From contig NZ_CCBB010000001.1 of the NCBI RefSeq assembly GCF_000613185.1, positions 620,001-684,000 of the forward strand: 64,000 bases of DNA, read 5' to 3'. Origin of the DNA: Mycolicibacterium cosmeticum (lineage in GTDB: Bacteria > Actinomycetota > Actinomycetes > Mycobacteriales > Mycobacteriaceae). Position numbers and translations under genes: made by a program. Under the pieces are notes generated by a model, which had not been told where the DNA came from, searched no databases, and saw nothing but the letters and a program-made list of their open reading frames with translations. Every line of letters begins with the position of its first letter. Position 1 is the first letter of the stretch. Positions 1 through 48,747 of the stretch are shown one piece after another.

Positions 1-1935
1 CACCTGCGCACCGGGGCCGCTCTCCCCGAACCGATCGATTCCCACCACATCGTCGCGGTCCTCGGCCAGCGCCAGCCATCCCGTCGGCACCCCGGCCTCG
101 ATCCACACCACGGGCACATCGGGCCGCACCGACCGGTCGGCGGCCATCGCGTCGGCGAATCGTTCACGCCACAGCACCGATATCACCGCGGCCGCGATCC
201 CCCGCGTGCCGAGCAATTCCGCCGCGTCCAGCGCCAGGACCACCTCTGACCCACTGGCGGCCAGGACGACGTCCGGTCGGTCGGCCGAGCGCACGGTGCG
301 CGCCCCGATGCTGCGCGTCTCGTCCAGATCGCCGCCCAGCTGCGGGAGATTCTGCCGGGTCAGGATCAAGGCGGTCGGTCCCGACAGGTTCCGGGCGGCG
401 ATATCCCAGGCGACCACCGTCTCGGCGGCATCCGCCGGGCGCAACACCGTCAGTCCGGGGATCAACCGCAGCGATTCGACCTGCTCGACCGGCTGATGGG
501 TGGGCCCGTCCTCACCGACGTACACCGAGTCATGGGTGAAGATGTAGATCACCGGCTGGCGCATCAGTGCCGACAGCCGCAGCGCGGGCCGCAGGTAGTC
601 GGCGAACACCAGGAAGGTACTGCCGAACGGTCGCAGCCCGCCGTGCAAGGAGATGCCGTTCATGGCCGCCGCCATGGCATGCTCCCGGATGCCGAAATGC
701 ACTGTCCGGCCGGCATAATCGAGGCTGCTGACCGAACCGCCCGGGATCGCGGTGTTGGTCGAGGCGGCCAGGTCTGCCGATCCACCGACCAGTGCGGGGT
801 ATCGGGCCGCCAGGTCGACCAGGGCGGCACCCGATGCCTGCCGGGTGGCGACGGGCTGGTCCGGCAGCGTGCGCATGTCGAGCGCACCCGGCGGAGGCGC
901 CGGTATGGTGCCCAGCCGATGGTCCTGCGCCAGCTGCGGATGCGCGCCGGCCCAGGCGTCGTGATCGCGAACCCACTCGTCGCGCACGGCGGCAGCGGCC
1001 CCCGCGAGATCCGTGACCAGGTCGGCCACCTCGTCGGGAACATGGAATGCGGTTGCCGGCCATTCCCAGCGCGAGCGCATGGCGGCGATCGTCTCCACGC
1101 CGAGGGGGCTGCCGTGCGCCTTCGACGTTCCCTCGACGCCGGGGGCCCCGAACCCGATCGTGGTGCGCACCCGGATGAAGGTGGGTGCGGATTCCTCGTC
1201 GCGCGCCGCCGTGAGCGCCCGGTCGATCGCCGCGATGTCGTTACCGTCGTCGACCGCGAGCGTGTGCCAGCCGTAGGCGGCGAAACGCGCCATGGCGTCG
1301 TCGGCGCAGCTGAGGTCGGCAGCGCCGTCGATGGTCACGTTGTTGTCGTCGAAGAGGACGGTCAGCCGGCCGAGCCCCAACCGCCCGGCAAGGGATGCGG
1401 CCTCGTGGCTGATGCCCTCCATCAGGTCACCGTCACCGGCGAGCACCCAGGTGCGGTGGTCGACCACCCGGTGCCCGTCGATATTGCAGCGCGCCGCCAG
1501 CATCCGCTCGGCGAGCGCCATGCCGACCGCGTTGGCCATGCCCTGCCCCAGCGGGCCGGTCGTGGTCTCCACCCCCGGTGTCTGGCCGTGTTCGGGATGG
1601 CCGGGGGTGCGAGAGTCGAGTTGGCGGAACTGCGCGAGATCGGTGGCCGTGACCCCGTAACCGAAGACGTGCAGCAGCGCGTACAGCAGCGCCGAACCGT
1701 GTCCGGCCGACAGGACGAACCGGTCACGGTCGGGCCACGCCGGGTCGGCGGGATCGTGGCGCAGGTGGCGGGACCACAGTGTCCAGGCCAGTGGGGCGGT
1801 GCCCAGCGGCAGCCCGGGGTGTCCGCTGTTGGCGGCCTGCACCGCGTCGGCCGCCAGAAACCGGAGCGTGGTGACGGCCATCTGGTCGATCTCGGTGATG
1901 GCGGTCGTGTCGCGAGTGGTGGCGGCGCCGGTCAT
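1..1935 (-). CDS. tkt: Transketolase, 3' end cut by window edge
   Basis: Thiamine-diphosphate transketolase that moves two-carbon units between sugar phosphates; in the Calvin cycle it regenerates pentose phosphates. Reading the minus strand from the ATG at 1935 gives an open frame to base 1 with no stop, about 645 residues, so only the last few tens of residues of a usual 670-700 are missing. Visible motifs are the N-terminal IDQMAV...AANSGHPG region, the ThDP/Mg motif GDGDLMEG...DDNN, and the central GIREHAM and EDGPTHQPVE motifs of the pyrimidine-binding domain. The ATG overlaps the stop of the upstream epimerase gene (ATGA at 1932-1935), so the two are translationally coupled. Housekeeping transketolase in mycobacteria normally sits with tal and zwf; pairing with rpe and proximity to cbbX suggest this is a dedicated Calvin-cycle copy (cbbT), which is an inference. 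Confidence 0.95.
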   Translation of the reverse strand, partial: MTGAATTRDTTAITEIDQMAVTTLRFLAADAVQAANSGHPGLPLGTAPLAWTLWSRHLRHDPADPAWPDRDRFVLSAGHGSALLYALLHVFGYGVTATDLAQFRQLDSRTPGHPEHGQTPGVETTTGPLGQGMANAVGMALAERMLAARCNIDGHRVVDHRTWVLAGDGDLMEGISHEAASLAGRLGLGRLTVLFDDNNVTIDGAADLSCADDAMARFAAYGWHTLAVDDGNDIAAIDRALTAARDEESAPTFIRVRTTIGFGAPGVEGTSKAHGSPLGVETIAAMRSRWEWPATAFHVPDEVADLVTDLAGAAAAVRDEWVRDHDAWAGAHPQLAQDHRLGTIPAPPPGALDMRTLPDQPVATRQASGAALVDLAARYPALVGGSADLAASTNTAIPGGSVSSLDYAGRTVHFGIREHAMAAAMNGISLHGGLRPFGSTFLVFADYLRPALRLSALMRQPVIYIFTHDSVYVGEDGPTHQPVEQVESLRLIPGLTVLRPADAAETVVAWDIAARNLSGPTALILTRQNLPQLGGDLDETRSIGARTVRSADRPDVVLAASGSEVVLALDAAELLGTRGIAAAVISVLWRERFADAMAADRSVRPDVPVVWIEAGVPTGWLALAEDRDDVVGIDRFGESGPGAQV

Positions 1936-2618
1936 CGGTTCTGCTCCTGGCCCAGGGCGGCGTCACGCAGGGCGGTGACCCGATCGGCCATCGTGTCCGG
2001 CCCGGTGAACAACGCGGAGCCGGCACAGAACACGTCGGCCCCAGCCGCCGCGGCCCGGCCGATGGTCGATACGCCGATCCCGCCGTCCACCTCCAGTTCG
2101 ATATCGCGCCCGCTGCGGTCGATCAGTTCGCGGGCCGCGGCGATCTTGGTCTCCATCGAGGCGATGTACCGCTGACCGCCGAAACCGGGGCTCACCGTCA
2201 TGACCAACAGCAGATCCATCAGGTCCACGACATTGGTCACCGCTTCCAGCGGCGTGGAAGGATTCAGTGCCACGCCGGCCCGTGCCCCGGCGTCCGCGAT
2301 GGCGCACAACGTTCGGTGCAGATGGCGGGTCGCTTCGGCGTGCACGATGACGATCTCGCACCCGGCCTGCACCCAGCGGTTCAACATCGGGTCGGGATCG
2401 TCGACCATGAGGTGCGCCTCGAAACCCATGGCGACATGGGGCCGGTTGGCGGCGATCACGTCGGGGCCGAAGGTCAGATTCGGCACGAACCGGCCGTCCA
2501 TCACGTCCCACTGGACGCGGTCGACACCGGCCTTCTCCACGTTGCGGAGCTCCTCGCCGAGATCTGAGAAATCCGCGGGCAGAACCGAAGCGACGACGGT
2601 GGGCGATCGCCTGTCCAT
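1932..2618 (-). CDS. rpe: Ribulose-phosphate 3-epimerase
   Basis: 228-residue TIM-barrel enzyme interconverting ribulose 5-phosphate and xylulose 5-phosphate. It shows the family signatures: an SVLPADF start, QWDVMDGRFVPNLTFGP (metal/substrate residues), a VHAE motif, MTVSPGFGGQ phosphate-binding loop and EVDGGIG near the C terminus. The start is the ATG at 2618, preceded by a strong AAGGAGG at 2623-2629; the open frame extends far upstream but through the intergenic region and the divergent regulator, so that extension is not real. The gene leads a rpe-tkt operon and is divergent from the response-regulator gene at 2760. Its role is probably supply of ribulose 5-phosphate for phosphoribulokinase encoded about 26 kb away. 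Confidence 0.95.
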   Translation of the reverse strand: MDRRSPTVVASVLPADFSDLGEELRNVEKAGVDRVQWDVMDGRFVPNLTFGPDVIAANRPHVAMGFEAHLMVDDPDPMLNRWVQAGCEIVIVHAEATRHLHRTLCAIADAGARAGVALNPSTPLEAVTNVVDLMDLLLVMTVSPGFGGQRYIASMETKIAAARELIDRSGRDIELEVDGGIGVSTIGRAAAAGADVFCAGSALFTGPDTMADRVTALRDAALGQEQNR

Positions 2619-2759: not shown

Positions 2760-3437
2760 ATGACGACGGCGATTGTTGCGGGCGCGGGACCGGTCCGCGT
2801 GGTTCTGGTCGACGATCACCAGATGGTGATCGAAGGCCTCAAGGCCATGCTCACCTCGTTCCAGGGCAAGGTACGTGTGGTCGGTCAGGCGGTCGGTGTC
2901 GACCAAGCCGTTCAGGTCGTCGAAAGCCTGGATCCCGATGTGGTGCTCTGTGATGTCCGGATGCAGGGCTCGAGCGGACTGGACCTTTGCCTTGCGCTGC
3001 GCCAACGTAATCCCGCACGCAAGATCGTGATGCTGTCGGTGTACGACGACGAGCAGTACCTCTTCCAAGCCATGCGCGTCGGGGCGTCCGGCTATCTGTT
3101 GAAGAGCATCAGCAGCGACGAGTTGGTGCACCAACTGGAGTTGGTGCGAAACGGTGAGACGGCCATCGACCCCGGGCTGGCCGCCCGCGCCGTCGACACG
3201 GCCGCGCGCCTGCAGCGTGACGAGTTCTGGCCCGGCGCAGGCCACGGCCTGACGCAACGGGAGAGCGAGATTCTGTCCTTCATGGTCAGCGGGCTGTCCA
3301 ATCGGGCCATCGCCACCAAACTCGTCATCGGCGATGAAACGGTGAAGAGTCATCTGCGTTCGATGTACCGCAAGCTCGGCGTGGGCGATCGAACCAGTGC
3401 CGTGGCGGCCGCGTTGCGCGAGGGCATCTTCCGTTGA
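2760..3437 (+). CDS. NarL/FixJ-family response regulator
   Basis: 225-residue DNA-binding response regulator. The receiver domain (about 12-130) has the acidic pair D18/D19, phosphoacceptor D65 in VVLCDVRM, and the conserved lysine K115 in GYLLKS. The C-terminal LuxR-type helix-turn-helix (about 160-225) is typical: LTQRESEILSFMVSGLSNRAIA...ETVKSHLRSMYRKLG. The next gene is its probable cognate kinase; the stop codon overlaps that gene's TTG start. The pair lies between rpe-tkt and cbbX-LysR, so control of the neighbouring carbon-fixation genes is plausible but is only an inference from position. Confidence 0.93.
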   Translation: MTTAIVAGAGPVRVVLVDDHQMVIEGLKAMLTSFQGKVRVVGQAVGVDQAVQVVESLDPDVVLCDVRMQGSSGLDLCLALRQRNPARKIVMLSVYDDEQYLFQAMRVGASGYLLKSISSDELVHQLELVRNGETAIDPGLAARAVDTAARLQRDEFWPGAGHGLTQRESEILSFMVSGLSNRAIATKLVIGDETVKSHLRSMYRKLGVGDRTSAVAAALREGIFR

Positions 3438-4654
3438 GCACGTTGTCCGCCGGGCATGCCGCGACCGGCTCGACAGCGGTTCGAGAGTTCGTCGACGCCG
3501 ACCGCGAGTTGGCGCTGCTGCGTGAACTGATCGAGGCCACCGCGCAGGGCCCCGGCGTGGAGCCCCTCGCGGCGGCCGCCGCCCGGATCATCGTCGATGC
3601 CACCGGCACCGATGCGTGCCTGGTGCATGTGCTCGACGACGGTGACCGGTCGCTTTCGCTTGCCGGTGCCACACCCCCGTACGACAGCGAGGTCGGAAGG
3701 GTCCGGCTACCACTGGGATTCGGCATTTCGGGTTGGGTGGCCAGCCATCGGCAACCCGTGGTGATCACCGAGGACAAGGAGTCGGACCCCCGTTACCTGG
3801 CGACCACCGTGCTGCACGACGCGCCGTTCACGTCGATGATCTCGGTGCCGATGGAGACCGCGCCCGGTGGGCTGGTGGGTGAGTTGTCGGTGCACACGTT
3901 CCAGCGCCGCGAATTCACCCCCCGGGACGTCGAACTGCTGCGGGTGATCGGCAGGCTGATCGGCGGCGCGCTGCATCAGGCCCGTCTGCACCGGCAGTTG
4001 GTCGCGCGCGAGCGCGCCCACGAGAACTTCGTCGAACAGGTCATCGAGGCGCAGGAGACCGAACGCCGGCGCCTGGCCGGTGATATTCACGACGGAATCT
4101 CCCAGCGCCTCGTCACGCTGTCCTATCGCCTGGATGCGGCCGCCCGGGTGATGCACGGCGACGTCGCCGAGGCGTCCCAACAGTTGGAGGCGGCAAGGGA
4201 ACTCGTCGGACTGACGTTGGAGGAGGCGCGCGCCGCGATCGGTGGTCTGCGGCCGCCCGTCCTCGACGACCTCGGGCTGGCCGGTGGACTGTCGAGCCTG
4301 GCGCGCTCGATCCCGCAGCTGGACATCGAAGTGCAGGTGTGCGACCGGCGTCTTCCCGAGCACATCGAGGTCGCCCTCTACCGGATCGCGCAGGAGGGCC
4401 TGCAGAACGTCGTCAAACATGCCAAGGCGGCGATCGCCCGGCTCAGCTTCCTGGTCGACGGCGGCCTTGCCACACTCGAAATATCGGATGACGGACGGGG
4501 TTTCGAGGTTGCCGAGCACCAGCTCGGTCATTGCGAGGCGAGCGGTTACGGGCTGCTGTCCATGCGCGAACGAGCCGAGCTGGTCGGCGGCCGGCTGAGC
4601 ATCCGATCGCGCTCCGGTTCCGGCACCACCGTCACGGCGACCATACCGCTATGA
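3434..4654 (+). CDS. GAF-domain sensor histidine kinase (HisKA_3)
   Basis: 406-residue cytoplasmic-type sensor kinase. A GAF domain occupies about 30-185 (LPLGFGISGWVASHRQPVVI is typical). It is followed by a HisKA_3 dimerisation domain with the phosphoacceptor H219 in GDIHDGISQRL and a HATPase_c domain (about 305-406) with an N-box near EVALYRIAQEGLQNVVKHA and G-boxes SDDGRGF and GYGLLSMRERAELVGG. No transmembrane segment is visible, so the signal is probably sensed inside the cell through the GAF domain (redox, gas or small ligand). The TTG start at 3434 overlaps the response-regulator TGA by 3 bases (TTGA), the reason for choosing it. Cognate partner is the upstream regulator. Confidence 0.92.
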   Translation: MSTLSAGHAATGSTAVREFVDADRELALLRELIEATAQGPGVEPLAAAAARIIVDATGTDACLVHVLDDGDRSLSLAGATPPYDSEVGRVRLPLGFGISGWVASHRQPVVITEDKESDPRYLATTVLHDAPFTSMISVPMETAPGGLVGELSVHTFQRREFTPRDVELLRVIGRLIGGALHQARLHRQLVARERAHENFVEQVIEAQETERRRLAGDIHDGISQRLVTLSYRLDAAARVMHGDVAEASQQLEAARELVGLTLEEARAAIGGLRPPVLDDLGLAGGLSSLARSIPQLDIEVQVCDRRLPEHIEVALYRIAQEGLQNVVKHAKAAIARLSFLVDGGLATLEISDDGRGFEVAEHQLGHCEASGYGLLSMRERAELVGGRLSIRSRSGSGTTVTATIPL

Positions 4655-4711
4655 CGATCAACGCATCGGTCAACTATCACAGGGTATTTCGCAATAGACA
4701 CGTTCAGGATG

Positions 4712-4735
4712 GCCATGACACTATCCCGTCATGGC
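4712..4735. promoter_or_regulatory. Inverted repeat upstream of cbbX
   Basis: A perfect 8-bp inverted repeat, GCCATGAC-N8-GTCATGGC, lies 27 bases before the preferred cbbX ATG. The spacer reads ACTATCCC. The length and symmetry suit a dimeric regulator; the LysR gene that follows cbbX and the upstream NarL-type regulator are candidates. Its location over the upstream in-frame ATGs (4709, 4715) argues that those are not the real start. Confidence 0.45.
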
Positions 4736-4762
4736 ACACCAACACGACGAGCACGGCCGTAC

Positions 4763-5770
4763 ATGACTGAGTCGACCACCGAAAAGCCGCGTCGTGGCTT
4801 CGCATTCACCGACCGGCCGGCCTCCCGACAGGAGGCCGACCCGCAGAGCGGTGAACCCGAAACCGCGCTCTTGCGCGACGATGCCGTCATCGACGTCGCC
4901 GCGGCACGTCGTGACGCCGGCGTCGACGAGGTACTCGAGCGCCTGGACACCGAACTCGTCGGTCTGGCACCGGTCAAGACGCGCATCGCCGAGATCGCCG
5001 CCCTGCTGCTGGTCGACCGCATGCGGGCGCGGTTCGGACTTGCGGCACCCCAGCCGACACTGCACATGTGCTTCACCGGGAACCCGGGGACCGGCAAGAC
5101 GACGGTGGCCCTGCGGATGGCCGATCTGCTGCACAAACTCGGATACCTGCGCAAAGGGCACCTGGTCTGCGTGACACGCGACGACCTGGTCGGTGAGTAC
5201 ATCGGCCACACCGCGCCGAAAACCAAGGAAGTGATCAAGCGTGCCATGGGCGGGGTGTTGTTCATCGACGAGGCGTACTACCTGTACAAGGCCGAGAACG
5301 AACGGGATTACGGTGCGGAGTCGATCGAAATCCTGCTACAGGTGATGGAGAACCACCGCGAGGATCTCGTGGTGATCCTGGCCGGCTACGCCGACAAGAT
5401 GGCGCAGTTCTTCTCCGCCAATCCCGGGATGCAGAGCCGGGTGGCACATCACATCGAGTTCCCGGACTACACCCCCGCAGAACTCGAACAGATCGCCCAC
5501 CTGATGACGGAGCAACTCGGCTACCGATTCTCGCCCGGTGGCCGAGAAGCGCTGCAGAGGTACGTGAGCTTGCGTATCGACCAACCATGGTTCGCCAACG
5601 CGCGCAGCATCCGCAACGCGATGGAACGCGCGCGACTGCGCCACGCCAGACGGCTGCTCGGCGGTGCCTACGAGCAGGTGGACCTCGCGGCGCTGACCAC
5701 GATCGAAGCGCCGGACCTGTTGGCCAGCAGGGTGTTCGACGCCGCCGGGAACCCGTCGGAGCCGACGTGA
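4763..5770 (+). CDS. cbbX: CbbX, red-type RuBisCO activase (AAA+)
   Basis: 335-residue AAA+ ATPase of the CbbX family, which remodels inhibited red-type RuBisCO by pulling on the C-terminus of CbbL. Motifs: the family start [19 protein letters not shown], Walker [10 protein letters not shown], Walker [13 protein letters not shown], a pore-loop region around [11 protein letters not shown] and the sensor/arginine region near [17 protein letters not shown]. The ATG at 4763 begins MTESTTEK; in-frame ATGs at 4709 and 4715 would add 16-18 residues with no family resemblance and overlap an inverted repeat. No convincing ribosome-binding site is seen at either start. The gene is about 19 kb from cbbLS instead of immediately downstream, which is unusual. 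Its last codon overlaps the LysR start. Confidence 0.93.
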
Positions 5771-6648
5771 CGACCAACGCCCGGCTGCGGGCTTTCGTGG
5801 AGCTGGCCAACACCGGCTCCGTGCGCGGCGCCGCACTACGGCTGGTCGTCACCGAATCCGCGATCTCCTCCGCGGTCGGCAGCCTGAGCACCGAAGTCGG
5901 TGTCCCCCTTCTCGATCGACATGGCCGCGGGGTACGGCTGACCCCGGCCGGGAAACGCTATGCCGACTACGCACGCACCATCCTCGGGCTCCACGACGAG
6001 GCCGTGCGCGCGGCTCATGGGGAGGCAGACCCAGAACACGGGTCGATCAGGATCGCCGCGGTGACCACGGCCGGCGAGCTGCTGATTCCCGCCCTGCTGG
6101 CCTCTTTCACCGGCCGGTACCCCGACGTCGAATGCAAACTGCACGTCGCATCACGGACGGGATTGTGGCCCATGCTGGCCCGCCACGAGGTCGATATGGT
6201 GGTCGCCGGCCGCCCTCCGGCGGACCTGCGCCAGGTCAGGATCCGGGCCGTCAGCCCCAACACCCTGATCGTCGTCGGAAACCCGCGTGTGCAACACCGA
6301 TTCGCAGCGGCGACGACCACATGGCTACTGCGCGAATCCGGTTCGGGAACCAGAGCCACCACCGTGGCACTCTTCGAGGAACTCGACATCGCGCCGCCTC
6401 AGATGGTGCTCGGGTCGCAAGGTGCCGTCGTCGCGGCGGCCATCGCCGGTCTCGGCGTCACACTGGTGTCCCGGCAAGCGGTGCAGCGCGACCTCGACGC
6501 CGGCACGTTGGTCGAACTCCGCCTGCCCGGTGCACCGCTGGAACGCCCGTGGCACATCGTCACCCAGTCCCCTTCGACGGGATCGACCGAGTTGCTGATC
6601 GCGCATCTGCTCGCGCACCGTGGACTGGGGTGGGTGCCGGCCGGCTAA
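5767..6648 (+). CDS. cbbR: LysR-family transcriptional regulator, probable CbbR
   Basis: 293-residue LysR-type regulator. The N-terminal winged helix-turn-helix spans about 1-60 ([40 protein letters not shown], then [15 protein letters not shown]), followed by the two-lobed effector domain from about 90 ([20 protein letters not shown]). The GTG at 5767 overlaps the cbbX stop (GTGA), so the genes are coupled. Regulators of this family next to Calvin-cycle genes are usually CbbR, the activator of RuBisCO operons in response to intermediates such as RuBP; identification here rests on context, since CbbR cannot be told from other LysR proteins by eye. Likely targets include the palindromic cbbL/fda intergenic region and the cbbX upstream repeat. 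Confidence 0.72.
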
Positions 6649-6732: not shown

Positions 6733-7050
6733 ATGGCGAGTTACAAGGATCCCACTGACCATTTCCGCACCACTCTGCCGCACACCGGCGAGCATTTCAT
6801 CGACGTCTACAGTTGGCCCGGTTACTGTTCCATCCTGTTGGGAGTGATGTCCCTGGTCGCCGGGGTCGCCGCAGCCGCCTACCAGCGGACCCAGTGGATT
6901 GCCACGGCCGGCATCGTCGGCGTGCTGGCCATCGCGGGCGGTGCGGCCTGGCTCGTGATCGAGCACCGCAGGATCCTGCGCATCGAGTCACTCTGGCACC
7001 GGGAACATGCCACCTCTTTCCCGCATGCCAGGTCCTTCCCGAACACCTGA
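6733..7050 (+). CDS. Small two-helix membrane protein, unknown
   Basis: 105-residue protein of unknown function. After a polar N-terminus (about 30 residues) there are two hydrophobic helices, roughly 32-50 (CSILLGVMSLVAGVAAAAY) and 56-76 (WIATAGIVGVLAIAGGAAWLVI), then a basic and histidine-containing tail (EHRRILRIESLWHRE). A clear GGGAGG precedes the ATG by six bases, supporting a real gene. It stands alone between the LysR gene and the convergent receiver gene. I do not recognise a family; the layout suggests an inner-membrane protein with a cytoplasmic tail. Confidence 0.7.
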   Translation: MASYKDPTDHFRTTLPHTGEHFIDVYSWPGYCSILLGVMSLVAGVAAAAYQRTQWIATAGIVGVLAIAGGAAWLVIEHRRILRIESLWHREHATSFPHARSFPNT

Positions 7051-7065: not shown

Positions 7066-7488
7066 TCAGTTGCGCAGCGTGCGGCGCAGCAACGGGAGAA
7101 CGACGTCGGTCAGTTGCAGTGGGTCGATCGGCCTGCGCACCACCGCGTCCGCACCCGACCACCGGGCCAGCCACCGGTCATCGGGTCGCGCGATGGCGAG
7201 CACGATGGGCGGGCATTGCAACAGTTCGTCCTTGAGTTGCTTGGCGATTCCGATCCCACCTTCTGGAGCGGATTCCGCGTCGAGGACCACCAGATCGACC
7301 GCGGTCGTGCGTAGTTCGTCGAGCACGGCGGCACCGGTGGCGAACTCCCGGATCGCCGTGCGGCCGAGTCGATCGTCGGGCAACCTGCCGAGGGCACGTC
7401 TCACCTGCCCCCGAGTGTCCAGGTGCGAGCTGAACACCGCGATCTGTATCGGCGTGTAGTAGTCGAGCCTGGCCGCGTGGTCCGTCAT
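7066..7488 (-). CDS. Atypical receiver-domain protein (Rv3143-like)
   Basis: 140-residue stand-alone receiver-like protein without output domain. The beta-1 strand reads IQIAVFSSHLD where a canonical receiver has two acidic residues; the presumed phosphoacceptor strand is VDLVVLDAES; and the conserved lysine-proline near the end is replaced by VVRRPID. So at least the acid pocket and the lysine are altered. Start may be ATG 7488 (MTDH) or ATG 7497 (MRRM). In Mycobacterium tuberculosis a single-domain response regulator, Rv3143, lies just upstream of nuoA; here the gene is also adjacent to nuoA but divergent. A link with complex I is therefore conserved by context, but its function is unknown. 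Confidence 0.75.
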   Translation of the reverse strand: MTDHAARLDYYTPIQIAVFSSHLDTRGQVRRALGRLPDDRLGRTAIREFATGAAVLDELRTTAVDLVVLDAESAPEGGIGIAKQLKDELLQCPPIVLAIARPDDRWLARWSGADAVVRRPIDPLQLTDVVLPLLRRTLRN

Positions 7489-40597: not shown

Positions 40598-42975
40598 CAC
40601 GCGCTGCCATTCCCTCGGTCACCCGGGTTCGGGTGACCGTGACCGGTGTCGTGCAGGGCGTCGGGTTCCGGCCCTTCGTGCATCGCCTCGCCACCGAACT
40701 CGGGTTGGCGGGATTCGTCGGAAACGATTCCGCCGCAGTGTTCATCGAGGTGCAAGGCGCCGCCGAGGTGATCGCCGAGTTCGAACGCCGGCTGCGCAGC
40801 GAGGCGCCGCCGCTGGCCGTCATCGACGCCGCGTCCAGTACGGAAATACCCGTCGGATCCGACCGCGCCGGGGAGTTCCGGATCATCGCCAGCCGGCGGG
40901 CCGCGTCGGCCGCCACCGCGATTCCCCCCGATGTCGCGTTGTGCACGGCATGTGAGGCCGAACTGTTCGATCGGTCCGACCGGCGGTACCGCCACCCGTT
41001 CATCACGTGCACCGATTGCGGCCCCCGATTCACCATCATCCGGGGTCTCCCCTACGACCGGCCGGCCACCACCATGGCCGACTTCCCGATGTGCGCCCAG
41101 TGCGCGCGGGAATATCACGATCCCACCGCCCGGCGGTTCCACGCTCAGCCCATCGCCTGCCCGGACTGCGGCCCGTCGCTGTGGTTCACCGGTCCACACG
41201 GCCGGGTCGACGGCACCGATGCCGCCCTCGCCGCAGCGCAGCGTGCCCTGGCGGCCGGCGCCGTGGTGGCGATCAAGGGAATCGGCGGATATCACCTGGC
41301 CTGCGTGCCGGACAACGATGCCGCCGTGACGACATTGCGCGAGCGAAAAGCCCGCAGCGGAAAACCTTTCGCCCTTCTGGTGCGCGACCTCGACACCGCC
41401 CGGCGCTACGCACACATCACCGCCGCCGAGGCGGACGTGATGGCCACCCCGGCGCGCCCCATCGTCTTGCTGCGGCGCGCCGACGATGCGCCGGCCGCCA
41501 CCGCGGTCGCGCCCGGCAGTCCGTTGCTGGGACTCCTGTTGCCCTATGCACCGATCCATCACCTGCTGCTGCGCGCGGTGCCCGGGGCGGGCACCGACCC
41601 AGTCGATGCCCTCGTGTTCACCAGCGCCAATCGATCCGGGGAACCGATCTGCCACACCGCCGAGGACGCGGTCACCCGGCTGAGCGCCCTCGCCGACGCC
41701 GTACTCGATCACGATCGGCCCATCCACGTGCCGTGCGACGACTCGGTGGTGCGGGTCGTCGACGGGCATGAACTGCCGATCCGGCGATCCCGCGGCTACG
41801 CGCCGTTGCCGGTCGATCTCGGTCGCGACGGACCGGCGGTGCTCGCCGTCGGTGGTGAACTGAAGAACACCTTCTGCCTCACCGACGGGCGCCGTGCGTT
41901 CTGCTCGGCGCATATCGGCGATATGGGTAGTGTGGCGACCCTCAAGGCATTCACCCGCTCGGTCCGTCAACTCGGCGAGATACGACAACAGCCCGGCCGG
42001 CTGGCCGCCGACCTGCATCCGCGCTACACCACCCGAAACTGGGCCGAGCACAACGCCGGTGACCGGCCACTCGACTTGGTCCAGCACCACCATGCGCACG
42101 TGGTGTCGTTGCTCGCCGAACACGGCGCGTTGGGTGAACCCATCATCGGTGTCGCGTTCGACGGGACCGGCTACGGGCTCGACGGCACCGTCTGGGGTGG
42201 CGAGATCTTGCGGCTGGGCCGCGATTCGCATCGGTTCGCCCGGGCCGGGCATCTGGCGGCGGTCCCCATGGCCGGTGGTGACGCGGCGGTGCGCAACCCG
42301 TGGCGGATGGCATTGGCGCACCTGTGGCATGCCCGTCTGGGCTGGGATCCGGATCTGGAGCCGGTTCGGGCCGCCTCGACCGCGGAACTACGTTTGCTAC
42401 GTACCCAGTTCGCCACCGGGCGCGGCTGCGTGCCCACCACCAGTATGGGCCGGTTGTTCGACGCCGTCGCGGCACTGTTGGGGGTGCGCCAACAGATCGG
42501 CTACGAGGGCCAGGCCGCCATCGAGCTGGAGGTGCTGGCCGATGCCGGGCGAGGCGGGATCGCGTCACCCGGAGACGTACCGTTACGGTTCGCCGTCGGG
42601 TCCGATGGCGTCCTGGACCCGGCGCCGGTGATCACCGCGCTCGTCGCGGCGCTGCGGGCCGGCTCTGAGCCGCACGCGTTGGCGTCGGGCTTCCATCGCG
42701 CCGTCGCCATGGCCGTCGTCGACACCGTCGACGTGGTCGCCGGCCCGATCCGCACGGTCGGATTGACCGGCGGGGTGTTCCAGAACGTTCTGCTGCTGCG
42801 GACCTGTCGGCAGCTGCTGGAGCAAGCCGGTTACACGGTGCTGACCCACCGCATCGTGCCGCCCAACGACGGCGGCCTTGCGCTCGGTCAAGCGGCGGTC
42901 TCGATTCTCGCCGCGTCCGACGAAACATGCTGCGAGACAGCCGAAAATAGTGAGAGGATACCGCGATGTGTTTAG
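40594..42975 (+). CDS. hypF: Carbamoyltransferase HypF
   Basis: 793-residue enzyme that makes the cyanide ligands of the NiFe site from carbamoyl phosphate, with HypE. Domains in order: acylphosphatase-like (VTGVVQGVGFRPFVHRLA, about 5-95), two zinc-finger modules (CTACEAELF...CTDCGPRF and CAQCAREYH...CPDCGPSL), a YrdC/Sua5-like domain (about 200-390, KGIGGYHLACVP...RKARSGKPFALLVR) and the Kae1-like carbamoyltransferase (GGELKNTFCLT, LHPRYTTRNWAE, VQHHHAHVVSLLAEH, FDGTGYGLDGTVWGGE, GLTGGVFQN). Ends overlapping hypC. Confidence 0.97.
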   Translation: MTRAAIPSVTRVRVTVTGVVQGVGFRPFVHRLATELGLAGFVGNDSAAVFIEVQGAAEVIAEFERRLRSEAPPLAVIDAASSTEIPVGSDRAGEFRIIASRRAASAATAIPPDVALCTACEAELFDRSDRRYRHPFITCTDCGPRFTIIRGLPYDRPATTMADFPMCAQCAREYHDPTARRFHAQPIACPDCGPSLWFTGPHGRVDGTDAALAAAQRALAAGAVVAIKGIGGYHLACVPDNDAAVTTLRERKARSGKPFALLVRDLDTARRYAHITAAEADVMATPARPIVLLRRADDAPAATAVAPGSPLLGLLLPYAPIHHLLLRAVPGAGTDPVDALVFTSANRSGEPICHTAEDAVTRLSALADAVLDHDRPIHVPCDDSVVRVVDGHELPIRRSRGYAPLPVDLGRDGPAVLAVGGELKNTFCLTDGRRAFCSAHIGDMGSVATLKAFTRSVRQLGEIRQQPGRLAADLHPRYTTRNWAEHNAGDRPLDLVQHHHAHVVSLLAEHGALGEPIIGVAFDGTGYGLDGTVWGGEILRLGRDSHRFARAGHLAAVPMAGGDAAVRNPWRMALAHLWHARLGWDPDLEPVRAASTAELRLLRTQFATGRGCVPTTSMGRLFDAVAALLGVRQQIGYEGQAAIELEVLADAGRGGIASPGDVPLRFAVGSDGVLDPAPVITALVAALRAGSEPHALASGFHRAVAMAVVDTVDVVAGPIRTVGLTGGVFQNVLLLRTCRQLLEQAGYTVLTHRIVPPNDGGLALGQAAVSILAASDETCCETAENSERIPRCV

Positions 42976-43214
42976 GGATCCCTGGCAAGATCACCGAAAT
43001 CTGGGATGCCCCGGAAGGCGGCCGGTTCGCTCACGTCCAGTTCCATGACGCGGTCAAAACCGCATCGTTGGCGTACCTTCCCGATCTGCAGGTCGGCGAC
43101 TACACCATCCTGCACGCCGGCTTCGCCCTGACCCGCATCGACGAGGAGTCGGCTCAGCTCACCCTGGCGACCATGCGCGAATACGGTGTGTTCGACGAGC
43201 GGGAGGTGTCATGA
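42966..43214 (+). CDS. hypC: Hydrogenase assembly chaperone HypC (copy 1)
   Basis: 82-residue chaperone. N-terminal MCLGIPGKI (the cysteine after Met is essential for Fe transfer) and GDYTILHAGFALTRIDEESA near the end. It carries the Fe(CN)2CO moiety with HypD to the large subunit. ATG lies ten bases inside hypF. Confidence 0.95.
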   Translation: MCLGIPGKITEIWDAPEGGRFAHVQFHDAVKTASLAYLPDLQVGDYTILHAGFALTRIDEESAQLTLATMREYGVFDEREVS

Positions 43215-43927
43215 CCGCCCCCGCCGCCCCGGCCCTGTCGGCCGAGGTGGCCGCCGATCTGTCCCGAGCCGCACTGACTCTGGCGCAGCGGTTCTCGGCA
43301 GGAGCCACCGCCTGGTGCATCGCCCCGGCATTTCCCCCGCACGCGCATCACATCGCCGTGGAGTTCGTGCATCCCGTCATCGTGGGCAAGCGGGCACTTC
43401 CCGCCGTCGCCCTGACCGGAACCGACCTGCTCGCTCAGGTACGGGTGTCGGTACGCCCCGGCGATGTGGTGATCGCCGTCGCCTCCGCATCCGATCCCGT
43501 GGTGGCGTCGGTGATGCGCCGCTGCGAAGCGTGGGGCGCCACCTCGATCTGGATCGGCAACGGTGACCGTCCGGCGCACGGCGCCGCCGATCACGTGTTG
43601 TGGCTCGGCGATCCTGATCCACGACTGCCCGTCACCGGTGAATTCGTCCTGATGTACCACCTCTTGTGGGAGCTCACGCATGTGTGCTTCGAGCACCCGG
43701 GGCTGCTGGCCGATCCCCGCCAGGAGTGCACCGAGGATGTCTGCATCACCTGCAGCGATGAAGGACGCCTCGCCGAGGTGATCACCGTCGCCGGTGACGG
43801 CACGGCCACCGTGCGCACCGCACGCGGCACCGAAACCGTGGCGGCGCTGCTGGCCGGACCGCTGTCGGCGGGCGATCTGGTGGTGTTGCACGCCGGAACG
43901 GCGATCAGCAAGGTAGCCGAGGAGTAG
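43211..43927 (+). CDS. SIS-like domain fused to a HypC-like domain
   Basis: 238-residue protein. Residues 1-160 resemble a SIS (sugar isomerase) domain: HIAVEFVHPVIVGKRALPAVALTG, then RPGDVVIAVASASDPVVASVMRRCEAWGATSIWIGN. The last 70 residues look like HypC: EDVCITCSDEGRLAEVI...LSAGDLVVLHAGTAISKVAEE. This is an unusual architecture; the HypC-like part has CITC in place of the MCL start. Coupled to hypC by an ATGA overlap and followed by another SIS protein. Probably a hydrogenase maturation factor; the SIS ligand is unknown. Confidence 0.8.
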   Translation: MTAPAAPALSAEVAADLSRAALTLAQRFSAGATAWCIAPAFPPHAHHIAVEFVHPVIVGKRALPAVALTGTDLLAQVRVSVRPGDVVIAVASASDPVVASVMRRCEAWGATSIWIGNGDRPAHGAADHVLWLGDPDPRLPVTGEFVLMYHLLWELTHVCFEHPGLLADPRQECTEDVCITCSDEGRLAEVITVAGDGTATVRTARGTETVAALLAGPLSAGDLVVLHAGTAISKVAEE

Positions 43928-43931
43928 ACCG

Positions 43932-44606
43932 ATGAACCCTTCACCGTTCGACGTCAACCCACTGGACGAGGCGACCAACTTCCTGTACCCGTTCATCGAC
44001 GCGCACGAATCCGATGCCGAGGCGCTGATGGTCGACCTGACCAAGTCGGCTCTGGCCAAGGCCGCCGACAGTGCCGCGTTACGGCAGTCGACCGTGCGGG
44101 CCGGCGCCACGCTGATCGCCGAAGCCGCCCGCGAGATCTCCCGCCGGTTCGCCGCCGGTGGACGGATGTTCACGTTCGGCAACGGCGGTAGTTCGACCGA
44201 TGCCGCCACCATGGCCGCCTTGTACTCGTTGCCGCCGTCGGGCCGCCCGTTGCCGGCGTGGTCGCTGGCCACCGACGAGGCGGTACTCACCGCCCTGGGC
44301 AACGACGTCGGCTTCGACTTGGTGTTCGCTCGCCAGTTGATCGCCCGAGCGTCCGAAGGCGATATCGCGGTGGCCATGTCCACCAGCGGCAACTCCGCGG
44401 ATCTGTTGCTCGCCCTTCGGGAGGCGCACGGCCGGGGCTTGTACACCGTGGGGTTCGCCGGATATGACGGCGGAGCGTTCGCCGACAATCCCGATGTGGA
44501 CGTGTGCTTCGTCGTCGAATCGCAGAGTGTGCACCGAATCCAGGAAGCGCAGGCCTATCTCGGATTTCAGCTGTGGGCCGCCGTTCAAGAGGGGATTCAA
44601 CGATGA
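43932..44606 (+). CDS. GmhA-like SIS-domain protein in the hyp operon
   Basis: 224-residue SIS protein. FTFGNGGSSTDAATMAALY and VAMSTSGNSADLLLALREAHGRGLYTVGFAGYDGG match phosphoheptose isomerase (GmhA) loops. By eye, the GmhA catalytic glutamate region is ATMAALY (no Glu) and the catalytic histidine of RIQEIHI reads RIQEAQA here, so isomerase activity is doubtful. A ligand-binding role in hydrogenase maturation seems more likely given hypC before and hypE after. Stop overlaps hypE (ATGA). Confidence 0.85.
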   Translation: MNPSPFDVNPLDEATNFLYPFIDAHESDAEALMVDLTKSALAKAADSAALRQSTVRAGATLIAEAAREISRRFAAGGRMFTFGNGGSSTDAATMAALYSLPPSGRPLPAWSLATDEAVLTALGNDVGFDLVFARQLIARASEGDIAVAMSTSGNSADLLLALREAHGRGLYTVGFAGYDGGAFADNPDVDVCFVVESQSVHRIQEAQAYLGFQLWAAVQEGIQR

Positions 44607-45715
44607 GTGACCATGTGGCCGAATACCTGTCCTCGGGACCGTCATTCGGTGAAGGTGAGGTCATCGAACGCATCGAGACGTTCCGTAAGCGGCGGCCGCG
44701 CCTGCGCGACACCGTCGTCACCCTTGCCCACGGTGCGGGCGGCAAGGCGTCGGCGGCGCTGATCGACGCCGTGTTCGTCGAGGCGTTCCGTAACCCCCTG
44801 TTGGACAATCTCGGCGACGGCGCGGTGATCGATCTGCCTGGCGGCCAACGGATGGCCTTCTGTACCGACTCGTTCGTGGTCCAGCCGCTGCGCTTTCCGG
44901 GTGGATCGATAGGGCAACTGGCCGTGCACGGCACCCTCAACGACCTGGCGATGGTCGGCGCGGTGCCGTCCTGGCTCAGTGCTGCCTTCGTCATCGAAGA
45001 GGGCTTTCCCATCGCCGAGTTGCGCGGCATCGTCGCGGATATGGCCGCTGCCGCAGCCGATGCGTACGTCCAGATCATCACCGGGGACACCAAGGTGGTG
45101 CCCAAGGGAGCAGCCGACGGCCTGTACATCACCACCGCGGGAGTCGGACTGGTACCCGCCGGCCGCGATCTGACCCCGCACAAGGTGCGCCCCGGTGACC
45201 GGGTTCTGATCTCCGGCACCATCGGGGACCACGGCATGGCGGTCATGCTGGCCCGCGGCGACCTGGCCATCGAGGCCGATATCAACTCCGACACCGCCGC
45301 CGTGTCGGGCTTGGTGGAGCGGCTGTTGGAGGCCGCTCCGTCGACGCGGTGGCTGCGCGACCCCACCCGCGGTGGGGTGGGCACCGTCTGCAACGAGTTG
45401 GCCCAGGCGACCGACCTGGCGGTCGTGTTGGAGGAAGAGCAGCTGCCGGTCCGTCCAGAGGTCAACGGCGCCTGTGAGATGCTCGGCATCGATCCGCTCT
45501 ACGTCGCCAACGAGGGCAAGTTCCTGGCCGTCGTCGCCCCCGACGAGGTCGACGCCGCGCTGGCGGCTCTACGCCGCGAACCGAACGGCGGCGACGCGGT
45601 GGAAATCGGCCGCATCGCCGACGAACCGGCCGGCACCGTCGTGGTGCGCACGGGGTTCGGTGGCACCCGCATCGTCGACATGCTCGTCGGTGACCCCCTA
45701 CCCCGAATCTGCTGA
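44603..45715 (+). CDS. hypE: Hydrogenase maturation protein HypE
   Basis: 370-residue PurM-like ATPase that dehydrates the thiocarbamate on its C-terminal cysteine to thiocyanate, yielding CN- for the Fe. Motifs: LAHGAGGKASAALID, FCTDSFVVQPLRFPGG, GTLNDLAMVGA, ITGDTKVVPKG, RDPTRGGVGTVCNELA and the C-terminal PRIC with the essential terminal cysteine. ATG 44603 overlaps the SIS gene stop. Confidence 0.97.
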   Translation: MSDHVAEYLSSGPSFGEGEVIERIETFRKRRPRLRDTVVTLAHGAGGKASAALIDAVFVEAFRNPLLDNLGDGAVIDLPGGQRMAFCTDSFVVQPLRFPGGSIGQLAVHGTLNDLAMVGAVPSWLSAAFVIEEGFPIAELRGIVADMAAAAADAYVQIITGDTKVVPKGAADGLYITTAGVGLVPAGRDLTPHKVRPGDRVLISGTIGDHGMAVMLARGDLAIEADINSDTAAVSGLVERLLEAAPSTRWLRDPTRGGVGTVCNELAQATDLAVVLEEEQLPVRPEVNGACEMLGIDPLYVANEGKFLAVVAPDEVDAALAALRREPNGGDAVEIGRIADEPAGTVVVRTGFGGTRIVDMLVGDPLPRIC

Positions 45716-45728
45716 GGAAGGACCCACC

Positions 45729-46001
45729 ATGTGCCTCGGGATACCCGGGAGAATCATCGAGATCACCGATGTGGCCAACTGTCTGGCGAAAGTCGAAGTC
45801 AGCGGTGTCCGTCGGGTGATCAGCGTGCGGCTGCTGGAAGCCGACCTGCCCGAGCCCGACGACTGGGTGCTGGTGCACGTCGGATTCGCCATGGCCAAGA
45901 TCGACGAAACCGAGGCGCTGCTCACCCTGGCGGCCGTCAAGAAACTCGGCGATGCCTATTCCGACGAAGTGCAAGCCTTCGACACTTCCGCGATCATCTG
46001 A
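45729..46001 (+). CDS. hypC: Hydrogenase assembly chaperone HypC (copy 2)
   Basis: 90-residue second HypC: MCLGIPGRIIEI at the start and DDWVLVHVGFAMAKIDETEALL near the end. Two HypC copies in one operon, plus the HypC-like domain of the SIS fusion, may serve different stages or partners. Start has GGAAGGA upstream. Confidence 0.95.
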   Translation: MCLGIPGRIIEITDVANCLAKVEVSGVRRVISVRLLEADLPEPDDWVLVHVGFAMAKIDETEALLTLAAVKKLGDAYSDEVQAFDTSAII

Positions 46002-46013
46002 GCTGGAGAGACC

Positions 46014-47159
46014 ATGCGATTCGTTGACGAATTCCGCGACCCCGCGGCGGCCCGCCGGCTGCTCACCGCCATCGCGGCCCTGGCCCAAAGTGCCGACCCC
46101 GACGAACATTTCAAGTTCATGGAGGTGTGCGGCGGGCACACCCACACCATCTACCGGCACGGTATCGAGCATTTGCTGCCGGACAACGTGGAGCTGGTGC
46201 ACGGGCCCGGCTGCCCGGTGTGTGTCATTCCGATGGGCCGGGTGGACGATGCGATCTGGCTGGCCAAGCGGCCCGGGGTGATCTTCACCTGCTTCGGAGA
46301 CATGATGCGTGTTCCCGGTTCGGATGGCAGTCTGTTGGACGCCAAGGCCAACGGCGCCGACGTCCGGTTCGTGTACTCACCGTTGGACGCGCTCAAGATC
46401 GCCGTCGACAACCCCGACAAAGAAGTCGTGTTCTTCGCCATCGGCTTCGAGACCACCGCACCGTCGACCGCGGTGACGGCGGTGCGTGCGCGCGAGCTCG
46501 GAGTGCCCAACTTCAGCATCTTCTGCAACCACGTGACGATCGTGCCGCCCATCAAGGCCATCCTGGAATCACCGGATTTACGCCTGTCCGGCTTCCTCGG
46601 CCCCGGGCACGTCTCCACCGTCGTCGGTAACCGGCCATACCGGTTCGTGCCCGCCGTGTACCAAAAGCCCCTGGTGGTGGCGGGGTTCGAGCCGCTGGAC
46701 ATCCTCGCTTCGATTGCGATGTTGCTGCGGCAGATCCGCGAGGGTCGTTGCGAGGTGGAGAACCAGTATTCGCGGGTGGTCAACGAGGAGGGCAATCCGG
46801 CCGCCTTGGCACTGATGGCCGACGTTTTCGCACTGCGGCCGCATTTCGAATGGCGCGGACTGGGTTTCATCTCGCAGAGTGCATTGCGCCTGAGCGACGG
46901 TTACGCCGACTTCGATGCCGAGCAGCGGTTCGCGCTGCCGGGGATCCGCGTCGCCGACCCGAAGTCGTGCCAGTGCGGTGAGGTCCTCAAGGGGGTGCTC
47001 AAGCCCTGGGAGTGCAAGGTGTTCGGCACCGCGTGCACGCCCGAGACACCGATCGGCACCTGCATGGTCTCCCCGGAGGGCGCGTGCGCGGCCTACTACA
47101 ACTTCGGCCGACTGCACCGGGACGCCGCAACGCTGATCGGGCAGGGCGCGCCGACGTGA
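46014..47159 (+). CDS. hypD: Hydrogenase maturation protein HypD
   Basis: 381-residue iron-sulfur scaffold on which Fe(CN)2CO is built with HypC. Motifs: FMEVCGGHTHTIYRHG, GPGCPVCVIP, GFETTAPSTA, SNFCNHV-type FCNHVTIVPP, GFLGPGHVSTV, and the C-terminal cluster region CQCGEVLKGVLKPWECKVFGTACTP...GTCMVSPEGACAAYY. Length is usual. Confidence 0.97.
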   Translation: MRFVDEFRDPAAARRLLTAIAALAQSADPDEHFKFMEVCGGHTHTIYRHGIEHLLPDNVELVHGPGCPVCVIPMGRVDDAIWLAKRPGVIFTCFGDMMRVPGSDGSLLDAKANGADVRFVYSPLDALKIAVDNPDKEVVFFAIGFETTAPSTAVTAVRARELGVPNFSIFCNHVTIVPPIKAILESPDLRLSGFLGPGHVSTVVGNRPYRFVPAVYQKPLVVAGFEPLDILASIAMLLRQIREGRCEVENQYSRVVNEEGNPAALALMADVFALRPHFEWRGLGFISQSALRLSDGYADFDAEQRFALPGIRVADPKSCQCGEVLKGVLKPWECKVFGTACTPETPIGTCMVSPEGACAAYYNFGRLHRDAATLIGQGAPT

Positions 47160-47908
47160 TCACCGACGGTGCCACGGTCACCGACGGCGCGCAGATGTTC
47201 GCGCGGTATGCCTTCGCACCCAACCGGCTCGGTTACTGCGGCCCGCCCGGAACGGTGCCGCCGGCGACTGCGGGACGGGCTGAGATCGAAAGAGCGGCAC
47301 GGCAGTTCACCGGTGCGTGGCCCTACCTCGTGGTGCTGTCCACGATGGCCGGCATCACCGATCCGTTGGATCACCGGGTGGTGGAAAGCTACTGGTTGGG
47401 TGGCGGGATCGGCGCCGCGGTGGAGCCGCACACGTTCTGCGGTGCGCTGCTGGAGGTGATCGGTCCACAGGCCGGCCATTACTGGTCCCACCTCGACATG
47501 GAGCTGGCCGCAGAGGCCGCACCGGACCACGGGTTCCACGTGTTCGGCGTCTACCCGTGGACGCGGCTGCTCGGTACGGGGATGGACGAGCATCCGCTCA
47601 TGGTGCTCGACAACTGCCGGATCAGTTGGGGCACGGTGCTGTCGGCACACGAGACCACCGCGATCGTCGCGTCGCGCGCCCTACAGTGGGACGGAACGGC
47701 CCTGTCGCTGGGGGCAGAATCGACCGGCCGGGTGGAGATCGGTGAGGAGGCTCCGGCCGACCGACCGGTCACCGCCGGCGACCTGGTGGCGGTGCACTGG
47801 GGACGGGTGTGTGACCGGCTGACCCCCGGCCAGGCACGCGAACTCGAAACCGCCACGCTGCGGCAGCTGAGGTGCACCAACCGTCGACTGGCCGGTGCAC
47901 CGCGATGA
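47156..47908 (+). CDS. Huc-operon protein of unknown function (250 aa)
   Basis: 250-residue protein with no motif I can name with certainty; it resembles proteins found after hypD in actinobacterial hydrogenase operons (possibly DUF6390). Features: RYAFAPNRLGYCGPP near the start, VESYWLGGGIGAAVEPHTFC in the middle, and DNCRISWGTVLSAHE. The GTG start overlaps the hypD stop. Operon position suggests hydrogenase maturation or regulation. Confidence 0.75.
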   Translation: MITDGATVTDGAQMFARYAFAPNRLGYCGPPGTVPPATAGRAEIERAARQFTGAWPYLVVLSTMAGITDPLDHRVVESYWLGGGIGAAVEPHTFCGALLEVIGPQAGHYWSHLDMELAAEAAPDHGFHVFGVYPWTRLLGTGMDEHPLMVLDNCRISWGTVLSAHETTAIVASRALQWDGTALSLGAESTGRVEIGEEAPADRPVTAGDLVAVHWGRVCDRLTPGQARELETATLRQLRCTNRRLAGAPR

Positions 47909-48747
47909 GACCGCGGATCGTGCAATCCGAAGGGCAGATCGGTTTCTACTGGGCCGGTCCGACCGACGCGGCCCCGATCGCACTGGTCGACCTGGTGGTC
48001 GATGACGACGAACCCGAACGTCTCATCGCCACCCATCTGGAGGCCCTCGACGATGCGCTGATCATCGCCGCGGCCCGATTCGGCGAGTTGCTCGGCGGTG
48101 GCAAGCGGCCCGAGCACCAGGATCGATTCGATCTGACCTTCCTGTACCAATGCCTGGACCGCCTGGTCCTGGACTATGCGCAGGCCGCCGCTGCGGCCGG
48201 TGTCATGCCGGATCTGCGCGCCGGCAAGATCATCGGAACCGCCGCACTGTTCTCGATTCGTGCGCGCTTCCCCCTGGACCTGCTGGGTCCCGCGCCACTC
48301 GACGGTGAGCTCGACGAGGCGCCGATCGGGGTGATCTCCGGATACGGCCACCTGGAGCAGGTCGACCCCGAGCGCCCCTGGGCGGGCGGCAGGTGGGTGC
48401 TCAAAGCCGAGACGGGACAACGGTATCCGTTGACATTGTCGACGATGTTGTTCGACAGCTCGGGCGTGAACAAGGAAGCCGCTCGGCGGGAGCATCGGGA
48501 GATTGTCGAAAGATGCGTCGCCGCCTCGGCATCCGCGGATGCCGACCCGTTCACCGTTGCGTGCGCGCTGGACTGGTTGCTGTACGACTGGTTGATGGCG
48601 CACCGCGAGGATCCCGACAGCGCGGAGATCACCTTCCCCAGGGGACACGAGTCCGACGCCGCGCTTGTCGTGTCGGCCGCAGCCGCATCAGTTCGGGCCA
48701 GGACCGTGTTCGATCCGCAGCTGCGCGGGGCGTTCGTCGAGCCCTGA
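47905..48747 (+). CDS. Huc-operon protein of unknown function (280 aa), last gene
   Basis: 280-residue soluble protein, unknown family. Begins MRPRIVQSEGQIGFYWAG; middle has LTFLYQCLDRLVLDYAQAAAAAGVMPDLRAGKIIGTAALFSIRARFPLDLLG; mostly alpha/beta. ATG overlaps the stop of the preceding gene, so it is the last of the coupled Huc/hyp series. Its 3' end overlaps the convergent SulP gene by 60 bases. Confidence 0.75.
   Translation: MRPRIVQSEGQIGFYWAGPTDAAPIALVDLVVDDDEPERLIATHLEALDDALIIAAARFGELLGGGKRPEHQDRFDLTFLYQCLDRLVLDYAQAAAAAGVMPDLRAGKIIGTAALFSIRARFPLDLLGPAPLDGELDEAPIGVISGYGHLEQVDPERPWAGGRWVLKAETGQRYPLTLSTMLFDSSGVNKEAARREHREIVERCVAASASADADPFTVACALDWLLYDWLMAHREDPDSAEITFPRGHESDAALVVSAAAASVRARTVFDPQLRGAFVEP

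Follow-up and report, generated by a model that had tools for sequence, protein, structure and literature searches.

Huc, the hydrogenase of Mycobacterium smegmatis, works with atmospheric affinity and passes electrons directly to menaquinone (PMC10017518). Menaquinone is too weak a reductant to yield NADH directly, which makes CO2 fixation by Huc-bearing mycobacteria an open energetic question. Form IE RubisCO and H2 oxidation have been listed for seven Mycobacteriales strains (PMC12999727), and there is precedent for complex I running in reverse to feed CO2 fixation (PMC6430793, PMC9040806), extra complex I clusters having been proposed to serve reverse flow in Nitrospira and in Candidatus Manganitrophaceae ('Ca. 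Manganitrophaceae') (PMC9040806). Here we analyzed a stretch of 64,000 nucleotides of Mycolicibacterium cosmeticum, hereafter the window (C1:620001-684000 of a Mycobacterium-type genome of 6.46 Mb in 5 contigs), in which Calvin-cycle genes, huc and a complex I operon, nuoA-nuoN, share one island. We propose that this is a chemolithoautotrophy island with its own second complex I, likely run in reverse to carry electrons from Huc-reduced menaquinone to NAD+ for CO2 fixation, and we assign this reading a probability of about 0.6.

The second complex I and its tie to RubisCO and Huc

A preliminary description of this DNA had placed complex I between carbon-fixation blocks and had taken the arrangement as a sign of co-selection. 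The placement stands, as nuo lies between usfY and fda-cbbLS, but this is not the normal nuo of the genome. The duplication that the same description had suggested looking for is present: another nuoA-N lies within C3:1249700-1269500, with its NuoD at C3:1263307. There the Rv3143-type regulator is upstream on the same strand, as in most of the single-copy operons fetched, whereas its relative in the window is divergent. The window operon is an old, divergent paralog and not the housekeeping complex I; a housekeeping nuo flanked by later cbb insertions is ruled out by the second nuo in the genome. All 14 genes are present in one operon, nuoA (7614-7979) and nuoK (17401-17700) having been read by hand from the sequence, and they include the NADH module NuoE, NuoF and NuoG. 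Alignments showed that the main pump lysines and glutamates are preserved in NuoM and NuoN of the window.

The hydrogenase is identified as Huc, a group 2a [NiFe] hydrogenase, by the matches of HucS, HucL and HucM to 7utd/7uus: its large and small subunits are nearest to the solved Huc chains, and the gene for the stalk subunit, hucM, is beside hucS. No other [NiFe] hydrogenase was found in the genome. Of the Calvin-Benson-Bassham gene set, the window also encodes both RubisCO subunits and phosphoribulokinase. Phosphoglycerate kinase (PGK) and glyceraldehyde-3-phosphate dehydrogenase (GAPDH), two Calvin-cycle functions that had not been seen in the window, are indeed encoded outside it, but they are not missing from the genome, which has one copy of each, adjacent, at C3:2288915-2290651.

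The distribution of these genes was analyzed in a sample of 198 genomes from the genus. Of these, 29 had a CbbL relative, at 90% identity or more in 27 and at 72-73% in two. HucL, counted as absent when there was no match at 1e-80, was found in 58 genomes, including all 27 with the close-type CbbL. Taking E <= 1e-60 as a strong NuoD match, two strong matches were present in 14 of the 29 cbb-positive genomes (in one of them, G009, the second NuoD is incomplete, residues 54-404) versus none of the 169 cbb-negative ones (Fisher p 7.6e-14, ignoring relatedness). This close examination covered 74 genomes, the 29 cbb-positive ones and 45 cbb-negative ones with at least two weak matches; the remaining 124 cbb-negative genomes had at most one match in the first NuoD search. 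Similarly, two NuoN were found in 18/29 cbb-positive versus 1/169 cbb-negative genomes, and in the latter case (G105) there is just a fragment, some 150 residues long. The association of a second nuo with cbb exceeds chance. None of the 31 Huc-positive genomes without cbbL had more than one strong NuoD, and in seven of these (G034, G054, G077, G098, G133, G151, G183) NuoD and HucL are on one contig, about 147 kb or more apart. The two genomes with distant RubisCO had no HucL at 1e-80 and at most one strong NuoD. Three cbb-positive genomes (G043, G144, G176) at first seemed, from NuoD, to lack complex I but are more likely broken assemblies: NuoN was found in all three, NuoF in G144 and G176, and a nuoA-like frame was recognised by eye at a contig end of G043. 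In G041, an 89%-complete assembly, no strong NuoD or NuoF was found, and its one NuoN is partial and of the island type. Within the sample a second nuo occurs only beside cbb and huc, and a nuo in the same place without them was sought and not found. Co-selection of complex I with carbon fixation is therefore more strongly supported than could be known from the window alone.

When the window genes were mapped onto the fetched stretches of other genomes, nuo-derived genes were found in all 27 islands carrying cbbL and hucL (G033 and G041 were judged across contig breaks). Island nuoN is present in 19 of these islands, nuoL and nuoM alone in seven, and nuoF alone in one. The operon occupies one of two sites. 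In the upstream layout it separates cbbX-cbbR-usfY from fda-cbbLS (G000, G013, G039, G096, G109, G144, G186, G187), as it also does at locus L033 of Mycobacterium lehmannii and at L004 of Mycolicibacterium sp. P9-22, which is likely the same genome as G187. In the downstream layout it follows cbb-huc and the gene of a conserved protein, orf47b, which marks this site, and precedes prk-fbp (G004, G009, G012, G033, G041, G043, G056, G125, G156, G170, G176). Contig ends interrupt the island in G041, G043, G109, G144 and G176, with nuo genes at the expected joints, and in G033 and G041 the nuo-prk part and cbbL are on different contigs and were linked by gene order. The lone nuoL-nuoM pairs are at the downstream site (G006, G031, G047, G110, G120, G173, G195), between orf47b and prk and without other complex I genes (L189, L191, L193, L195, L188), and the single nuoF, in G083, is near GAPDH and transposases.

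Divergence of NuoN and probable exchange between the two operons

A scan of the charged and Cys columns that are invariant in 21 housekeeping copies and two outside copies singled out residue 331 of NuoN, which is His in all of these and another residue in 14 of 14 island copies. In an extended set, His was present in 50/50 housekeeping copies (the 21 and a set of 43, with 14 in common) and absent from 19/19 island copies, which carry Gln (11), Asn (7) or, in the window, Thr (1). The substitution follows the layout of the island, with Asn or Thr in the upstream one (8/8) and Gln in the downstream one (11/11). Of the 120 window-NuoN homologues listed, 55 have Asn and another 55 have His at this position, with Gln in 9 and Thr in 1. 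The residue aligns to H305 of E. coli NuoN, which has been placed along the central axis, with K247 and K395 on either side (PMC13324432, 2026), and the M. smegmatis chain 8e9g_N has His. In the window NuoN the positions of E. coli E133, K217, K247 and K395 are preserved. An apparent change at D102 of NuoN came from a gappy region and was gone in a larger alignment.

In a concatenated tree, built without the G013 housekeeping copy (at a contig end), island and housekeeping copies were intermixed, and several island copies were placed beside the housekeeping copy of their own genome. Subunit identity between both copies within a genome goes from 100% (NuoD in G186) down to 57-76% (NuoM and NuoN; 13 genomes with data). 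Nine of the 14 operon pairs were scanned for DNA identity along the operon, and six of them (G186, G009, G056, G039, G004, G156) alternate between about 100% and 60-70% identity; the longest identical run, 852 bp in G186, is beside stretches of 60-70%. The pattern was weaker in G012, limited to one patch around nuoB in the window genome, and absent in G125. At L121/L122 and L129/L130 the paired nuo operons of a genome share long near-identical stretches amid 60-70% identity. The patchy near-identity and the mixed tree are likely due to gene conversion, and the patchiness in several genomes rules out recent whole-operon duplication in each species as a full account. A tree of NuoN with Rhodococcus, Tsukamurella and others as the root, though with a weakly supported root branch (45/93), put the housekeeping copies in one clade (99/95) and the 14 island NuoN outside it. 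Of the 120 listed homologues, 18 were selected by name for this tree, and seven of these grouped with the island copies.

These data bear on the best-surviving alternative, in which the island nuo was recruited from the housekeeping operon several times and the shared position reflects repeated selection and not one founding event. This is possible, though we do not favor it. It would fit the island copies found beside their own housekeeping copy in the concatenated tree, the two island positions with their different residues at 331, and the housekeeping-like copy with its His kept on a plasmid of M. intracellulare chimaera AH16. However, gene conversion, as suggested by the patchy identity in G186, can explain the mixed tree, and in the tree of NuoN alone none of the 14 island copies falls within the housekeeping clade.

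Selection was estimated from the ratio of nonsynonymous to synonymous substitution rates (dN/dS). Three genome pairs gave pairwise values of 0.06-0.25 across five island subunits, and the lone nuoL/nuoM pairs gave 0.11-0.17, which indicates purifying selection; G006 and G031 were omitted from the alignments of the reduced pairs, as each has its genes divided between two of the fetched stretches. In two close species pairs, median synonymous distances were 0.125 and 0.135 for island nuo, 0.07 and 0.175 for cbb/huc, and 0.275 and 0.465 for housekeeping nuo. The lower values in the island suggest that cbb, huc and nuo may have moved between species as one block.

Direction of electron flow and competing explanations

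Since Huc reduces menaquinone and the genome has no other [NiFe] hydrogenase, making NADH from H2 would need reverse flow. In the mechanism that we propose, Huc would oxidize H2 and produce menaquinol, a share of which would be passed to oxygen and build the proton gradient, while the other share would be driven uphill through the island complex I to give NADH for the Calvin cycle. The potential of NAD+ is about -320 mV. Bringing two electrons there from menaquinone, at about -74 mV, would cost ~0.49 eV, and about three protons at 180 mV would suffice for it. A separate copy would allow a reverse-tuned enzyme to be expressed only with RubisCO and Huc, leaving the housekeeping copy to run forward in heterotrophic growth. 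The tie to RubisCO and Huc would be explained most simply by a second complex I that is under separate regulation and suited to the reverse direction; we infer the direction of flow, the co-expression and regulation of the copies and any effect of the NuoN change from sequence. A complex I so tied, with a consistent change in a proton channel, opens the energetic question to genetic and biochemical tests.

Several observations weigh against this proposal. Eight of the 27 islands are without a full complex I (the seven with nuoL and nuoM and the one with nuoF), which means that the island can persist without a complete second complex I, and some copies look damaged (nuoB, nuoD and nuoM in G009, nuoL in G056, nuoM in G186), unless these are sequencing errors. 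Locus L152 (5887-10063) encodes a formate dehydrogenase alpha subunit adjoining a NuoF-like subunit, and this candidate, likely NAD-linked formate dehydrogenase could supply NADH without reverse flow. In addition, chloroplast and cyanobacterial NdhB carry Gln at the H305 position in our alignments, so the loss of His is compatible with a working complex I and need not abolish pumping, and the His is not a strict defining feature of complex I. Most subunits evolve more slowly than NuoM and NuoN, whose low identity is therefore not all due to lack of conversion; where conversion has blurred the subunits, both copies may be partly interchangeable. As for a common origin, island NuoN as a single clade is compatible with the data at a support of 46/94 (p 0.226 in an approximately unbiased test of a smaller set). 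Lastly, codon bias can also lower synonymous distance, and could contribute to the low values in the island.

Among the functional alternatives, it is unlikely, if worth keeping in view, that the second complex I runs forward, serving mixotrophic growth or formate oxidation as an additional, inducible NADH dehydrogenase, and is linked to the island by shared expression conditions. The candidate NAD-type formate dehydrogenase, the retention of all catalytic nuo genes, the purifying selection on island subunits in the genome pairs compared, and the preserved pump residues in NuoM and NuoN would all agree with forward operation. Nevertheless, the copy follows RubisCO together with Huc and not Huc alone, judging from the 31 Huc-positive genomes without cbbL, and many of the 169 genomes without such a copy would also profit from an additional dehydrogenase running forward. 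A more specific idea, which we regard as doubtful, is that the island complex I has been retuned through the loss of the bridging NuoN His and would move fewer protons per electron pair (~3 and not 4 per NADH from menaquinol), and that, in lineages with nuoL and nuoM alone, these two chains would replace their counterparts in the housekeeping complex I, a gear change induced for autotrophic growth.

Neutral hitchhiking of a nuo operon caught in a mobile island, decaying slowly and with no dedicated role, appears quite improbable. The partly stripped islands and the frame damage in some, the transposases in G083 and the probable movement between species would be expected from it, but the low dN/dS values, also in the lone pairs, the two island positions and the absence of the same His from every island copy are not. 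Least probable of all is that the island antiporter-like subunits take part in the uptake of inorganic carbon, like those of photosynthetic NDH-1 or of DAB systems, and not in NADH supply, for although seven islands have NuoL and NuoM alone immediately beside prk-fbp and photosynthetic NdhB has Gln where island NuoN has Gln, Asn or Thr, full islands keep the NADH module and no NuoL insertion of more than 10 residues was seen in 14 island and five reduced copies (G056 and G047 incomplete).

Gene content of the island and comparison with known systems

Gene identities in the window were obtained from NCBIfam, Pfam and PDB matches (Table 1), which bear out the genes named in the preliminary description (tkt, rpe, cbbX, cbbR, fda, cbbLS, cbbP, cbbF, nuo, a nickel permease, hyp and Huc). 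For cbbS there was no NCBIfam match at 1e-8, and tRNA and Rfam scans of the window gave nothing informative.

Table 1. Features of the window, with the matches that identify them.
Feature	Position	Strand	Evidence
tkt, transketolase; 3' end beyond left window edge	1..1935	-	TIGR00232 740 bits, above cut-off
rpe, ribulose-phosphate 3-epimerase; C-terminal part of longer open frame	about 1932..2600	-	TIGR01163 above cut-off
Sensor histidine kinase with GAF domain	3434..4654	+	PF13185, PF07730, PF02518; homologues in other islands
cbbX, RubisCO activase	4709..5770	+	TIGR02880 above cut-off
cbbR-like LysR regulator	5767..6648	+	Top match NF045990, under its cut-off
usfY	6733..7050	+	NF041247 above cut-off
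Rv3143-type response regulator, divergent from nuo	7066..7464	-	NF050825, under cut-off
nuoA-nuoN, 14-gene operon of the second complex I, specific to the island	7614..22622	+	
Island nuoN; Thr at residue 331 versus His in housekeeping NuoN	21102..22622	+	
fda, class I fructose-bisphosphate aldolase	23180..24211	-	NF033379 above cut-off
cbbL, RubisCO large subunit	24254..25780	+	Single copy in genome
cbbS, RubisCO small subunit	25799..26224	+	81% to small subunit annotated on NZ_CP012886.2
nicT, NicT-type nickel permease	26828..28021	-	NF052500 above cut-off
prk, phosphoribulokinase	28175..29059	-	NF011997 above cut-off
fbp/cbbF, class 1 fructose-bisphosphatase	29065..30180	-	NF006779 above cut-off
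hypB and hypA	30229..31393	-	TIGR00073 above cut-off; TIGR00100 under cut-off
AraC-family regulator, divergent from huc	31436..32491	-	Homologues adjoin huc in other islands
hucM, membrane-associated Huc stalk subunit	32696..33301	+	7uus_Q E=8.8e-34; PF07849
hucS, Huc small subunit	33427..34398	+	7uur_D E=2e-219
hucL, Huc large subunit	34436..36043	+	7uus_A E=0
Hydrogenase maturation protease	36127..36891	+	73% to protease annotated on NZ_CP012886.2
Huc accessory genes: TPR protein, NifU-like protein, NHL-repeat protein	37159..40597	+	Order matches plasmid NZ_CP012886.2
hypF, hypC, HypC-like, SIS protein, hypE, hypD	40594..47159	+	
DUF6390 protein (PF19927) and unnamed conserved protein orf47b	47156..48747	+	

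The island extends to the left of the window, where two phosphoglycolate-phosphatase-like HAD proteins and another phosphoribulokinase, different in type from that of the window, were found beside tkt (L156 11200-13911); a sugar kinase is also part of this extension. At ~3.7-9.5 kb of the same locus (L156, C1:606000-620100), and thus a few kb before the island begins, there is a cluster of the soluble diiron monooxygenase type with MmoY-like and MmoC-like subunits and a DhaR-type regulator, with a sugar kinase adjoining. At the right island edge (48688-50774) there are an ArsR regulator and a SulP-family transporter with similarity, under the cut-off, to the BicA model, which may be an anion or bicarbonate transporter. 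The small protein of unknown role encoded by usfY recurs in Calvin-cycle islands, the plasmid one included (also L081 11709-12287 and L194 18585). In the G186 island (L174 1504-5122), an insert between fda and nuo encodes a thiamine pyrophosphate enzyme and proteins resembling 3-hydroxyisobutyrate dehydrogenase and a sugar isomerase.

A plasmid form of this gene set is found in NZ_CP012886.2, a 437-kb plasmid of M. intracellulare subsp. chimaera AH16, a sputum isolate. The plasmid was typed as mobilizable and carries Calvin, huc and hyp genes within ~72 kb together with nuoA-N, and the region 308588-395000 (L081, L184) holds a near-complete H2/CO2 set. It differs from the window island in being plasmid-borne, in having its own PGK and GAPDH and a second [NiFe] hydrogenase set, which may, as a guess, be Hhy, and in its NuoN, which keeps the His and groups with the housekeeping copies, so that a second complex I likely joined cbb and huc there by a different route. 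The presence of H2 and CO2 genes on a mobilizable-type plasmid in an opportunistic mycobacterium suggests that this capacity could be transferred between species.

In the literature, as far as titles and abstract openings of open-licence papers go, we found no complex I inside mycobacterial RubisCO-Huc islands. The form IE RubisCO gene sets of Actinomycetota offer a comparison for the Calvin-cycle part, and the main text of that study contains neither 'nuo' nor 'complex I' nor 'NADH' (PMC12999727). As regards complex I itself, the Nitrospira 2M form, the rhizobial green complex I and Complex_I_3 of 'Ca. Manganitrophaceae' are, like the island enzyme, variants with altered pumping subunits, and a role in reverse electron transport has been proposed for the chemolithoautotroph variants among them (PMC9040806). 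All three have extra pumping subunits, and 2M and Complex_I_3 have in addition a subunit insertion of ~26 residues (PMC9040806). By contrast, the window complex I has the canonical number of subunits, its change is the lost NuoN histidine, and a 2M-like NuoL insertion was looked for in the alignments of the nuoL-nuoM islands and not seen; it therefore falls outside the 2M and Complex_I_3 types. Cells that carry both a housekeeping and an island NuoN, together with the islands that have only NuoL and NuoM, would provide material for testing models of complex I stoichiometry and reversibility. With respect to the mycobacterial complex I (8e9g), the window operon shares the full set of 14 subunits and its NuoM and NuoN align along their length, whereas it is a second paralog in which both of these subunits are divergent and NuoN has Thr for His at residue 331. 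Finally, the Huc of M. smegmatis (7utd/7uus) is matched by the HucS, HucL and HucM chains of the window, very closely in the case of the first two, and the window Huc differs from it in adjoining RubisCO and a second complex I.

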